Shown one piece after another: positions 54,573 through 58,873 of a DNA stretch of 64,000 nucleotides. The DNA is taken from NCBI RefSeq assembly GCF_003234445.2, contig NZ_CP126269.1, positions 2,976,001 through 3,040,000 on the forward strand, written 5' to 3'. How positions within the stretch are numbered: position 1 is the stretch's first letter; every line of letters starts with the position of its first letter. The translations under genes and the position numbers were made by a program. Below the pieces are notes generated by a model. It did not search any database. It saw only the letters and a list, made by a program, of their open reading frames with translations, and was not told the origin of the DNA. Source of the stretch: Curtobacterium sp. MCLR17_036. GTDB taxonomy: Bacteria > Actinomycetota > Actinomycetes > Actinomycetales > Microbacteriaceae.

Positions 54573-55178
54573 TCAGTCCCAGGGACCATCCACGGTCCCG
54601 AGGTGCTCCCTGCCGAGTGGCGTGATCGGCAGGGCCGCGAGGCTCGCGATCCCCACTTGCAGGAGCGCCGCTCGCGAGGTCCCGACGCGCCCGATCGCCC
54701 CCATCCCCTCGATCACCGCGCAGAAGTAGGTGCCGAGCGCCTCCCCGTCGGCATCGGCCTCGACCTCGCCGGCCGCCTGCGCGTCGGCGATGCAGGCCGT
54801 GTAGCCCGCGCGGATGGTGTCGAAAGTCTCCGTGACGGTCGCCGCGACCTCTGGGTCACGGGCCGACAGCTCCAGCGCTGCGCGGAGCAGCAACGAGGGT
54901 GCCCCCTGCGCTGCACCGTGCTCCACGGCCACGGACGCCAACCGCGTCCGGATCCGTGCGATCGGGGACTCCGCACTCCGCAGGACCGCCTGCACGACCT
55001 CGACGGCCTCGGCGGTGTCACTGAGGAACGCGCGCATGAAGAGTTCCTTCTTGCCGCCGAACGTGTCGTAGAGGCTCTGCCGACCGAGTCCCGTCGCCGC
55101 GAGCAGGTCGTCGAGGGACGTGCCGTCGAACCCGGACTCCACCAACCCGGCGATCTTTGCCACGAACCAGCTCATCAT
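54573..55178 (-). CDS. TetR family regulator
   Basis: 201 aa from ATG 55178 (ATG 55175 follows). HTH GFDGTSLDDLLAATGLGRQSLYDTFGGKKELFMRAFL is complete, with YDTFGGKKEL as the tail motif. No target gene is adjacent: downstream lies the PRC fragment, upstream the AT-rich island. It is the last clearly host-style gene before the island. Confidence 0.87.
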   Translation of the reverse strand: MMSWFVAKIAGLVESGFDGTSLDDLLAATGLGRQSLYDTFGGKKELFMRAFLSDTAEAVEVVQAVLRSAESPIARIRTRLASVAVEHGAAQGAPSLLLRAALELSARDPEVAATVTETFDTIRAGYTACIADAQAAGEVEADADGEALGTYFCAVIEGMGAIGRVGTSRAALLQVGIASLAALPITPLGREHLGTVDGPWD

Positions 55179-55828
55179 GCCCGTGCTCGTCTCACACGAC
55201 AGCGCCGCACCCGGAATAGCTCCAGACCGATCGTCAGCCACTTCGTAACTTCTGGAGGCGCGCCGGCCGGTGCTTCGCCGACGGTGGTCAGCTCCGGACA
55301 ATCGATCACGTTCATCGAGGTCAGAACCTTGGTCCCAATCAGTGCACTGACGAACGCGCAGGGCTAAATCACTTCCCTGAGGCACCTACGGCACCGTGCA
55401 GGGTCATCCCGGCGTTGAACCGGAAACTTTGACCTCCCGTTGATGAAGACGCTGACCGTCAGCCGACGCCGGAACGGGAGCCAGCGACCGAGGTGCAGGG
55501 GAAGTCAAGATGAATGGGAAATCGGATCTCTAGGGCCGCGTTGAGCAGCCGACGAAGCCGCGCACGCACATATGGTCCGCCGGTCTCCCACCGCACCCAG
55601 AGCATAGCGAAGGATGAGCAACACGCTTGCCAACTTGGCACTTTGGAGTGGTAGTGGTGCCGCCCTTCCGAGCCGAGCCGGCGCAAGCGACGCCTGCGCG
55701 CCACAGTTCAGCCACCATCCGTGTAGCGAAGACCCGACGACCCAATCCAAGGCCGACCTCCGGATGGTTCCGCGGATCCCTCTCGCGGCGAGCATCCTCC
55801 TGCCGTAGCGCTCAGCCACCACTCCCGC
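55179..55828. other. noncoding left flank of the AT-rich island
   Basis: About 650 bp with no convincing gene on either strand; short overlapping frames have no family resemblance. Base composition falls from about 55310 onward. No tRNA, integrase, transposase or terminal repeat is visible. It may hold decayed sequence or the island's junction. Confidence 0.5.
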
Positions 55829-55841: not shown

Positions 55842-56777
55842 GTGACGGACGCGATTTACTGGTGGACAGAGACCGCAGAGCTCCACGGGCCCTTCGACGC
55901 GGAAACTGCCATCGCATTGAGCGACCGCATGAGCGTGAAGTGGCGTCTGATCATCACCGAAGGCCCGGCGCGAAACGCTTCGCCAACTGCTGACAAAGAG
56001 CCCCCGTTGACGGAGCACCGGTCCGCGCTTGTGCCTGCGTTGCGGTCCGCGGACCCGAGCGCACTACTTACTATCCGCGAGTGGCGCAGCGACAATTTGC
56101 GTGTTCTCGAGGTTTCTCCCGCAGGAACTCAGGACAGCCCTGCCGGGTCCATACGCGGAATCAGCATGGAAGATCTCAAGGGATTGGTATTGCAAGCAGG
56201 GCCCGATGCTCCGGGGATTGTCGATGCGTTGTGGAACGAGGTCGAGCGTCAGAATGCCCTATTGTTTGCGGCTGAGGTTTCGCATATAAGCGAAGCTATC
56301 TTGAAGGACCCCGGCGCGGTCGATCAAATTGAGCGGACGCGCCACGTCAACGAACTGCAACGGTTGAGGGCGAGGTACGGACAACTGTTCCTCCACGCGA
56401 CCCGCGTGGAGGTTGGTGATCGCAGAAGCACGTCCACCCTGGCGGAATGGATACACATCCTCGACGGACTAGCCTCAACTGTCCTTATGCATCAAATTTC
56501 GATACTGAACGCGACTGAAGCAGAAACACGTAAGCGAGAAGCCGCGGCCGCGGGAAGGTCAGCTTCGCGAGACAGATTCCTAGCACTCTGGGCCACCTTA
56601 CTTCTTTTGCCAGGATTATGGTTCGGGTTTCTCGGAACCAATGTCCTCCCTCCTACGATATTCGGCATCTCCGTGCCAGGCAATAATGCGCTATTGATCA
56701 CCCTTATCGGCGGATTGGCCCTAGCTGCCATCGGAGGCGGGATCATTCTTACATATTTCCATAGGAGGAAATTTTGA
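55842..56777 (+). CDS. two-TM membrane protein with CorA-like C-terminus
   Basis: 311 aa, GTG start. Residues 1-115 are an unassigned soluble part; 120-242 are long amphipathic helices; then TM1 (about 246-264), a short loop with GTN (265-267) and TM2 (about 283-306), ending HRRKF. The order long helix, TM1, G-x-N loop, TM2, basic tail is that of CorA/ZntB channels, where the loop is GMN; here Met is Thr. The match is structural and by eye. AT-rich codons unlike neighbours. Its 3' end carries the AGGAGG for the next gene. Proposed: pore-forming or membrane-acting effector of a two-gene system (inference). Confidence 0.72.
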   Translation: MTDAIYWWTETAELHGPFDAETAIALSDRMSVKWRLIITEGPARNASPTADKEPPLTEHRSALVPALRSADPSALLTIREWRSDNLRVLEVSPAGTQDSPAGSIRGISMEDLKGLVLQAGPDAPGIVDALWNEVERQNALLFAAEVSHISEAILKDPGAVDQIERTRHVNELQRLRARYGQLFLHATRVEVGDRRSTSTLAEWIHILDGLASTVLMHQISILNATEAETRKREAAAAGRSASRDRFLALWATLLLLPGLWFGFLGTNVLPPTIFGISVPGNNALLITLIGGLALAAIGGGIILTYFHRRKF

Positions 56778-58873
56778 CTGAGCTGACGTATTCCGAGTTC
56801 CGAACCCGCTTGCCTCGCTCAGAGGCGCGACCGGCCTACTTAGGCGAACTCCTAGGCCCACGCCCAAGTCAGAGTCAATTTGTAGAACCTAATATTGAGA
56901 TTGTTCGCGAGTATGAAGATGCTCGAATCGCACTCATTTCTGCCCCCGCGGCAGTAGGTAAGAGCTTTCTTGCACGCCAATTAAGCTCAGACAACAATGC
57001 TCTATATTGGGATCTGGCGTCCTTCAGCCTCGGATCAAACTTTTTTGTTGGAACCGCTGTAGCGGCTTATCAGCCCGAGGGTTACCCAGCGTTCCTCCAG
57101 GAACTTCGCTCGGGCGAGCGCCTATTAGTCCTTGACGCCGCTGATGAAGCGTTAGTTCGTGCCGGGCGCGAGAATTATGTCGCTGCCATAACCAACCTGG
57201 CTGATATCACCTCGGAGTCCTCATCTCTGAGCGTGATAATCCTCGGTCGCAGTGACACGATTGACGACACCGCGGCCGTCCTTTCCGCTCATGGCGTCGC
57301 CACGAACATGTATTCGGTCTCCTACTTCACGGAAGAACAATCGTACGCGTTCGTCAAATATAAAGCGGAGCAGCTCGGGAACCCAGCCATCAAGGAATTC
57401 ACGCCGTTCATGAGGGGTTTCTTCCACGCGGTCGGCGAAGCGCTTGGCGCAACCTCCTTCGAGGGCGCCCGTGCCTTCCTCGGCTATGCGCCAGTACTAG
57501 ACGCGCTTGCCGCCTACTATGCTGACGAGATAAACCCAATTAAGTTCCTTGAGGCCGTGAAACGAGCGGGGGACCGACAGCACGTTTGGGAGCTCCTCCA
57601 TCGAATCGTGCAGGAGGTGCTGACGCGAGAGCAGGGTAAGTTTGCTCGAAATTTCAGCGGAGAAACGAGCGGGCGCAAATGGCAGTTTGGGTTCGATGCC
57701 TTCACTCCGGAGGCTCAGCTGACGTATCTCCTCGACACGAACCCGGTTCGGCAAGCAGTCGCTTTCTCCGAGGACGGAGAAAGCGACTGGTACGCGGAGC
57801 TAGAGGATCAGCTCGAACTACAGCTCAAGGAACACCCTTTCCTCAAGAGCGAGGTCGGCACAAGGGGGCCAAACCCGTTCAACAACTTTGCGAACGCTGC
57901 CTTCCGTGACTACGCGTTAGCACGCGTACTCGAGAACGAGGCTCTTCTGCCGCATGCTTTGCTTGAGGGTTACTGGCGGAGTCCGGAGCTCAACCCGACT
58001 CCCATCCTTGCAGGTCTCCTGTTTGCGGGGCTATTTGACTACAGCCGCGGCCTCCCTCCCGCCGCCTTCGGAATCATCCACGACTCGCACGCCGCTGAGA
58101 ACGAAGATGGCGGTTCCCCGTTCTTGATCTCGTCTGCTGACTTGGATGACGAAGGACGCTCATTGGGGATATCGATTTATCGGATTGAAGGACGCGCGAA
58201 GGACAGCAAGGCACTATGGGTGCGGTCGGACGAAAGGAGTCCGTCTCTGTATCGGCGCACGGCGCGCGCGATCATCGATCTTCAGGGGTCTCACCTCCGG
58301 GCTGGGGACGGCTTCGCTGATTTCCTGATTGGTCCCACAGTTTTTATTGCTTGCGACTCTTTCGATTCCTTAGTGTCCGACATCCGGGTGCGCGCAAACG
58401 GAACGGCGGGTGGCGTGACCCTTTTGGTCAATAACATCGGCGGCTCAACTAAGCGTCTGGACTGTATCCCCTCGGATTCTTTGCAGGTCAAGGGTAACCG
58501 CAATTCCATCCCGCACCCATGGTTCCGGTTTGCATCGAGCACCCCGGGAGCTGCCAGTTCGCAATCGGTGGAGAACGACCTGGCGATGGAAGTGCGCCGA
58601 GCAGTCATGTGGTTCACCAAACCGAGCATGTTCGGCGGGGGTTTGCGTTATCCCGTGGGCGCCGTCGACGCGCTCGTCGGGAAGCGGCGCGTCTCCCCTG
58701 AATTCATCGCTTACTTGAACGATCGACAGTTGCTCGAGCGGTCAGGAGATGAGTACGTCATGAGTCTTCCCGTGCAGACTGGGTCCATCGTTCGGAATGA
58801 CTTGGCGGATCCCGAGCTTCGCGCTTTCCTGCTCGATTACGGAAAATGGAAGTCCGGATTGACCACCAGTTGA
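56774..58873 (+). CDS. NACHT/STAND-like P-loop NTPase
   Basis: 699 aa, TTG start overlapping the previous stop (TTGA), with a perfect AGGAGG five bases upstream. Walker A-like APAAVGKS (Lys63, Ser64), Walker B LLVLDAADEA (Asp121 to Glu125, like the NACHT D-G-x-D-E), sensor strand VIILGRS and YFTEEQSYAFVKYKA, which parallels the NACHT L-T-E-E-Q segment. Helical region 210-330, then a beta-rich C-terminal part (about 430-690) that I cannot assign and may be the sensor. TTA Leu codons (residues 23, 70, 118, 127) and AT-rich bases mark foreign origin; 56881-56940 has only 24 G/C in 60. No TM segment. Likely a regulated switch partnered with the membrane protein. Confidence 0.75.
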   Translation: MTELTYSEFRTRLPRSEARPAYLGELLGPRPSQSQFVEPNIEIVREYEDARIALISAPAAVGKSFLARQLSSDNNALYWDLASFSLGSNFFVGTAVAAYQPEGYPAFLQELRSGERLLVLDAADEALVRAGRENYVAAITNLADITSESSSLSVIILGRSDTIDDTAAVLSAHGVATNMYSVSYFTEEQSYAFVKYKAEQLGNPAIKEFTPFMRGFFHAVGEALGATSFEGARAFLGYAPVLDALAAYYADEINPIKFLEAVKRAGDRQHVWELLHRIVQEVLTREQGKFARNFSGETSGRKWQFGFDAFTPEAQLTYLLDTNPVRQAVAFSEDGESDWYAELEDQLELQLKEHPFLKSEVGTRGPNPFNNFANAAFRDYALARVLENEALLPHALLEGYWRSPELNPTPILAGLLFAGLFDYSRGLPPAAFGIIHDSHAAENEDGGSPFLISSADLDDEGRSLGISIYRIEGRAKDSKALWVRSDERSPSLYRRTARAIIDLQGSHLRAGDGFADFLIGPTVFIACDSFDSLVSDIRVRANGTAGGVTLLVNNIGGSTKRLDCIPSDSLQVKGNRNSIPHPWFRFASSTPGAASSQSVENDLAMEVRRAVMWFTKPSMFGGGLRYPVGAVDALVGKRRVSPEFIAYLNDRQLLERSGDEYVMSLPVQTGSIVRNDLADPELRAFLLDYGKWKSGLTTS

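Follow-up and report, generated by a model that had tools for sequence, protein, structure and literature searches.

A coupled CorA-like membrane protein and NACHT-type NTPase as a candidate accessory anti-phage system in Curtobacterium

Here we describe a two-gene unit, encoding a CorA-like membrane protein (gene 1) and a NACHT/STAND-type nucleoside triphosphatase (NTPase; gene 2), in a 64,000-nucleotide stretch of the Curtobacterium sp. MCLR17_036 genome (contig NZ_CP126269.1, positions 2,976,001 to 3,040,000; hereafter the window, whose own numbering is used throughout). The host genome (G000) is a single contig of 3.64 Mb. The genes and the motifs discussed below, including those at the end of the first transmembrane helix (TM1) of gene 1, are as follows:

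55842-56777, + strand: gene 1, GTG start, 311 amino acids; CorA-like membrane protein, predicted effector
56634-56642, + strand: G-T-N of gene 1, residues 265-267; counterpart of CorA G-M-N at the TM1 end
56763-56768, + strand: AGGAGG, inside gene 1 near its end; probable ribosome-binding site for gene 2, judged from sequence
56774-58873, + strand: gene 2, TTG start, 699 amino acids; NACHT/STAND-type NTPase, predicted sensor/switch
56942-56965, + strand: Walker A of gene 2, APAAVGKS, residues 57-64; G62 and K63 invariant
57122-57148, + strand: Walker B of gene 2, LLVLDAADE (D-x-x-D-E type), residues 117-125; D121 and E125 invariant
57230-57250, + strand: sensor-1-like strand of gene 2, VIILGR region (VIILGRS), residues 153-159; R159 invariant
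57476-57499, + strand: FLGYAPVL of gene 2, residues 235-242; F235, G237, Y238, P240, V241 and L242 invariant
58121-58492, + strand: beta-rich C-terminal domain of gene 2 by model secondary structure, residues 450-573; candidate sensing part

An earlier note on this DNA had described two coupled genes in an AT-rich island, and both features are borne out at the locus. The reading frames overlap by 4 bases (TTGA), with AGGAGG in the end of gene 1, and the gene pair has a guanine plus cytosine (GC) content of 57.3% versus 71.5% in the remainder of the window. At third codon positions, GC is 0.625 in gene 1 and 0.643 in gene 2, compared with 0.80-0.97 in six neighbouring genes, and the pair carries 8 TTA codons in 1,012 codons versus 1 in the 2,409 codons of those neighbours. 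The GTG start of gene 1 is backed by a 78% identical protein (P0058) with an identical N-terminus; the database record of the window's own gene 1 protein (P0057) starts at an ATG 29 codons downstream, and a 90% identical relative of gene 2 starts one residue after the TTG reading. No sigma-70-like promoter was found at the pair, and terminator-like sites there do not exceed shuffle level. The closest named relatives of both proteins are from Curtobacterium citreum (90% identity for gene 2, 78% for gene 1).

Gene 2 is almost certainly related to NACHT proteins. The Walker A, Walker B and VIILGRS segments picked out by the earlier note are all present, with their key residues invariant in 41 aligned sequences, the window's included (the set on which all invariance listed above is based), and FLGYAPVL resembles the STAND GxP motif. 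When the structure model of gene 2 (predicted local distance difference test score, pLDDT, 85) was structurally realigned to solved chains, the best matches were NLRP3, NLRC4 and NOD2; NLRP3, NLRC4/NAIP or NOD2 accounted for 22 of the 27 top rows, with model residues 17-420 covered in at least one fifth of rows, and the alignments to NLR chains extend past residue 400, into a part in which a winged-helix domain might follow the helical domain. NLRP3 also ranks first in Foldseek. Against a bacterial NACHT profile, built from the 23 of 30 fetched loci that held a P-loop in a usable frame, hhalign gave a probability of 96% and a score of 84.8 over 145 columns, compared with 18.5 for the reversed control and a maximum of 18.1 in 40 shuffles. 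As a single sequence, gene 2 had no match to Pfam NACHT at E <= 1. There is no room for an effector domain N-terminal to the P-loop.

For gene 1, the relation to CorA is likewise nearly certain, and we regard the protein as a degenerate member of the CorA superfamily. The CorA-type architecture is present in its model, namely an N-terminal alpha/beta domain, cytosolic in CorA, a long helix (residues 194-267) continuing into TM1, the GTN motif, and a second transmembrane helix, TM2 (helix 280-310); the C-terminal helix pair joined by a GTN loop had been read correctly from the sequence. The first 33 rows of the structural realignment are all CorA, Mrs2, ZntB or CmaX chains, so that the best solved-structure matches are CorA-family channels. 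The loop motif is FLG[TAS]N in 6/7 aligned rows (FLGTN in the window) and YLGMN in the seventh (L116, Microbacteriaceae), and the distance from GxN to a conserved proline is the same in the gene 1 family as in CorA, the TM1 spacing being kept. PF01544 (Pfam CorA) had no match at E <= 1 in 6/6 family members, and for this reason the protein is named 'CorA-like'. With the best 8,000 candidates scored in each case, a sequence search found the window's own protein and one other, and a profile search found three; no meaningful match to Protein Data Bank sequences was obtained. Relatives of gene 1 were recovered through the neighbours of NTPase homologues. Some weak Pfam matches of the gene pair were left unused (Phage_holin_3_6 at 0.066; AAA_16, AAA_22 and nSTAND1 below cut-off).

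Computation shows the coupling of the two genes to be conserved. A gene 1-type partner lies directly upstream of the NTPase in six loci whose DNA was examined, namely the window and those of Curtobacterium oceanosedimentum (L004), Frigoribacterium (L005), Plantibacter flavus (L006), Mycobacterium sp. GA-1841 (L007), and L116, which from its tree position is probably Microbacterium. In C. citreum, both proteins are on record as protein entries, whose contigs are listed with one and the same length. In a 77-row NTPase tree (quick method, midpoint root; 38/77 rows with no known gene context), all seven partner-bearing rows, C. citreum included, fall within one 42-row clade, the other 35 rows of which are of unknown gene context. 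Outside this clade, a partner matching a set sequence pattern was absent in 32/32 rows of known context, a criterion that a CorA-like gene with a different motif could escape (absence at L117 was judged separately from its locus); the count excludes loci that are not in the tree, e.g. L013, L019, L020, L024, L029, L032, L035, L037, L038 and L040. The labels partner and no partner each require a single change on the tree. Partners from L004 and from other genera have only 20-23% identity to the window's gene 1 and yet keep the TM1 signature, from which we conclude that the coupling is old.

The pair belongs to the accessory, mobile part of the genome and not to its housekeeping genes. Among 60 genomes of the genus Curtobacterium, an NTPase homologue occurs in three: the window's own, one with a partner, and one of a distant type that has none. 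Broader genome searches with the NTPase profile, in overlapping sets, gave matches in 9/396, 9/398, 9/394 and 7/325 genomes, of which 5, 4, 5 and 3, respectively, were strong (the window's own being among the first three). The remaining low-scoring matches (4, 5, 4 and 4 genomes; E 5e-5 to 1e-3, spanning 29-77 profile positions around the P-loop) were dropped as generic P-loop proteins; short P-loop matches of this profile in related genomes are found at L046-L049, L056-L060, L071-L073 and L119-L123. A single-sequence genome scan confirmed no relative. Plasmids yielded three partial NTPase relatives, IMG/VR three distant ones, and phage records none.

Distant NTPases are found in Bacillota, Bacteroidota, Pseudomonadota, Myxococcota, Planctomycetota and other Actinomycetota. 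Two relatives (L050:4794-6986 and L051:4632-6953) are carried on viral contigs next to terminase genes, where cargo genes are often found, and have no CorA-like partner; in Streptomyces, a relative has a type IIG restriction enzyme at a distance of approximately 4 kb. As a separate observation, the distant NTPase closes an apparent three-gene operon in two Bacteroidota (L016:3735-7772 and L022:4402-8734), in which the second gene (approximately 200 amino acids) overlaps the NTPase gene by 4 bases. A domain scan, made in L016 only, identified the first gene as an AAA_21 ATPase with PADLOC matches including HEC-02A and AriA, and gave no match for the second.

The pair is located between two genes that lie outside the system and that delimit the site:

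54573-55385, - strand: TetR-type regulator (by eye); left flank in common with L110
58966-59967, - strand: nrdF; fixed flank of the hotspot

In Curtobacterium, the region past the 3' end of nrdF is a hotspot for insertions. While nrdF itself is present in 59/60 genomes of the genus, the 1.4 kb past its 3' end fall into 30 clusters from 30 loci at 40% coverage (the 30 loci with the most similar nrdF), as compared with one cluster of 30 on the opposite side. Where the variable stretch ends on its far side is defined only for L110 and L115, both from other Curtobacterium species: L110 has the same TetR flank with different genes in the gap, and L115 has a TIR protein there. Twenty genes past nrdF from 14 genomes, hand-picked rather than random and some of them several kilobases away, were compared with Pfam, and 13 matched. 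The families include DUF4411, TIR_2, DUF3037, HipA_2, DUF4209, SocA_Panacea, HTH_3, D12 methyltransferase, Peptidase_M78, reverse transcriptase, an HTH_17/MerR domain and Multi_ubiq, with a deoxyribosyltransferase-like domain below cut-off. Four hotspot genes were run against PADLOC, giving PDC-S39 in L109 (E 6e-163), a partial PDC-S66 in L115 (E 2e-9), and no match for those of L110 or L112. The TetR-nrdF gap of L110 holds an 802-amino-acid protein (L110:5530-7938) with no Pfam or PADLOC match, which is a candidate for a further unknown system. The pair, for which the earlier note had raised a fixed housekeeping role as the contrary outcome, sits at a hotspot, and in other species defence-like genes are found beside this site. 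On the note's question of whether the pair lies in defence islands, near the pair of L124 (the same genome as L116) is DrmA of DISARM (E 1e-200), together with an HSDR_N protein that PADLOC does not match, and near the Plantibacter pair is a GmrSD_N protein, whereas around three further pairs PADLOC matched none of the genes tested, as detailed below.

Taken together, a role of the pair in defence is likely. We consider it reasonably probable that the two genes form an accessory anti-phage system of the split NLR kind, in which a phage-activated NACHT sensor drives a CorA-like membrane effector; for the narrower proposal that gene 2 gates gene 1 directly, the chances appear about even. Whereas the folds, the coupling, and the horizontal and hotspot distribution are computed results, the phage trigger, nucleotide switching, direct contact between the proteins, opening of a pore and death of the cell are inferred, and would be arranged as follows. 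Resting gene 2 would bind ADP; its C-terminal part would sense a phage product, leading to nucleotide exchange and oligomerisation; and, no effector being fused to the N-terminus of gene 2, in contrast to most bacterial NACHT proteins, the separate CorA-like protein translated just upstream would serve as the effector. The active NACHT oligomer may then contact the cytosolic part of a CorA-like oligomer and open or deform the pore lined by TM1, and the resulting ion leak across the membrane would kill or stall the infected cell before phage release. A more specific and tentative version, which we think rather unlikely to hold in full, is a two-part bacterial resistosome in which a NACHT ring docks on the CorA-derived oligomer and opens its pore. 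CorA and the plant ZAR1 resistosome both have five-fold symmetry, and a NACHT ring would perhaps be five-fold likewise. If true, this would be the first known NLR with a co-opted magnesium transporter as its channel.

Several results weigh against the split NLR proposal. With regard to gene 2, FtsH chains (ranks 2-7) and other AAA+ chains follow directly after NLRP3 in Foldseek with TM-scores of approximately 0.2, a search of the whole of G000 with PF05729 (Pfam NACHT) gave 0 matches, and for the phage relative in L050 there is a further match, to a clamp-loader family (E 1e-6). The gene 1 model is moderate (pLDDT 70.6) and built on 6 sequences, its TM-scores to CorA are 0.2-0.3 with whole-chain realignments mostly at a root mean square deviation of 9-12 A, its match to a CorA profile has a probability of only 66% over 30 columns (the reference set being the 10 of 30 fetched loci retained by a G[MIV]N motif filter), and PF01544, searched genome-wide in G000, has no match at the pair locus. 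Both proteins gave 0 families at E <= 1 in PADLOC-DB 2.0.0, and PADLOC matched 0/10 tested neighbours of the L004, L005 and L007 pairs. At the hotspot, 7/20 of the hand-picked genes had no Pfam match, and the sampling had no random control site. Finally, a CorA-like partner is missing beside many of the NTPase relatives, and the NTPase can therefore work otherwise. The structure comparison that the earlier note put forward as a check nevertheless upheld both the STAND relation, by realignment and profile, and the CorA relation.

The alternative that survives best, though unlikely, is a toxin-antitoxin-like or exclusion module, in which gene 1 would be a membrane toxin silenced by gene 2 and freed upon loss or disturbance of gene 2. 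The two-gene layout with overlapping translation would suit such a module, as would the DUF4411, HipA_2 and SocA_Panacea genes beside the hotspot, presumably of toxin-antitoxin function. The CorA effector of type III CRISPR is, moreover, somewhat toxic alone, according to the part of PMC10600005 covered here. A 700-amino-acid NACHT NTPase would, however, be a costly antidote, and the distant NTPases that occur with no partner, some of them in viral contigs, argue for an independent function of the NTPase. Also quite unlikely is a function of the pair in regulated cation transport, with gene 1 moving Mg2+ or another metal, gene 2 acting as its ATP-driven regulator, and neither having an immune role. 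While the CorA-like fold, the GxN motif and the UniRef name of the C. citreum gene 1 relative ('CorA-like Mg2+ transporter protein') are what a transporter would show, G000 already has CorA genes recognised by PF01544 at three other places; the eight residues that follow the N of GxN include no acidic one in 6/7 gene 1 family rows, as opposed to MPE in 7/10 and IPE in 1/10 CorA reference rows; and a housekeeping role does not fit the scattered occurrence, the AT-rich islands or the position at a hotspot. It is very doubtful that defence is the task of the NTPase, with the CorA-like protein serving only to anchor it at the membrane, where the NTPase would meet incoming phage DNA or a membrane-associated phage protein: the partner-less relatives in several phyla and the divergence of gene 1 to about 20% identity with its TM1 signature retained speak for this reading, but an anchor would need neither a whole CorA-like fold nor a retained GxN with CorA spacing.

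If the split NLR proposal is true, the pair would be a simple system of two genes, one for an NLR switch and one for the membrane channel on which it acts and from which it can be separated. How an NLR becomes a membrane channel could then be tested directly by manipulating sensor and channel apart, and a CorA-type effector would be added outside CRISPR. The nrdF flank of Curtobacterium would likewise be a rich place to look for more systems.

Bacterial immunity is known to use NACHT proteins and, separately, CorA-like effectors; their coupling as a pair is probably undescribed. Searches of the open-licence PMC literature gave no paper in which a CorA-like protein partners a NACHT or STAND protein, and CorA is not mentioned in PMC12839542, PMC13092281 or PMC8195603 as far as these sources were covered. 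Neither gene is named by Pfam, NCBIfam or PADLOC; hence the earlier note's placement of the pair outside known defence systems stands with respect to the family libraries and literature searched, though UniRef does name the C. citreum gene 1 relative as CorA-like.

Avs (AVAST) proteins are STAND sensors known to carry fused effectors. Avs4 chains (8dgf) have 1,534-1,541 residues, in contrast to the 699 amino acids of gene 2 with its separate effector candidate. A CorA-family candidate effector is common to the pair and to type III-B CRISPR, where CorA is an immune effector with an N-terminal soluble and a C-terminal transmembrane domain that acts in SAM-AMP signalling; in the covered part of that source (PMC10600005), Cas10 makes SAM-AMP and CorA comes with an NrN, DEDD or lyase enzyme. 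The neighbour here is instead a NACHT NTPase, and the Cas10 (Cmr2 or Csm1) models TIGR02577 and TIGR02578 had 0 matches in G000, with controls matched in 4 and 7 of 14 genomes. CARD-NLR systems, as far as PMC13236601 was covered, consist of an NLR-like protein and a CARD component with proteolytic activation of gasdermin, or other effectors; like the pair, they encode the NLR-like protein apart from the membrane-breaking or other effector, but they rely on CARD and gasdermin proteolysis, whereas the pair has two genes and a CorA-like effector candidate. Closest to gene 2 are the bNACHT and other NLR-related antiphage proteins, which share with it a NACHT-type NTPase with STAND logic (profile score 85). 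According to the covered part of PMC12169576, bacterial NACHT proteins carry their effector domain at the N-terminus of the same polypeptide; here, a CorA-type membrane protein encoded upstream of gene 2 occupies the same relative position, but as a separate, overlapping gene.
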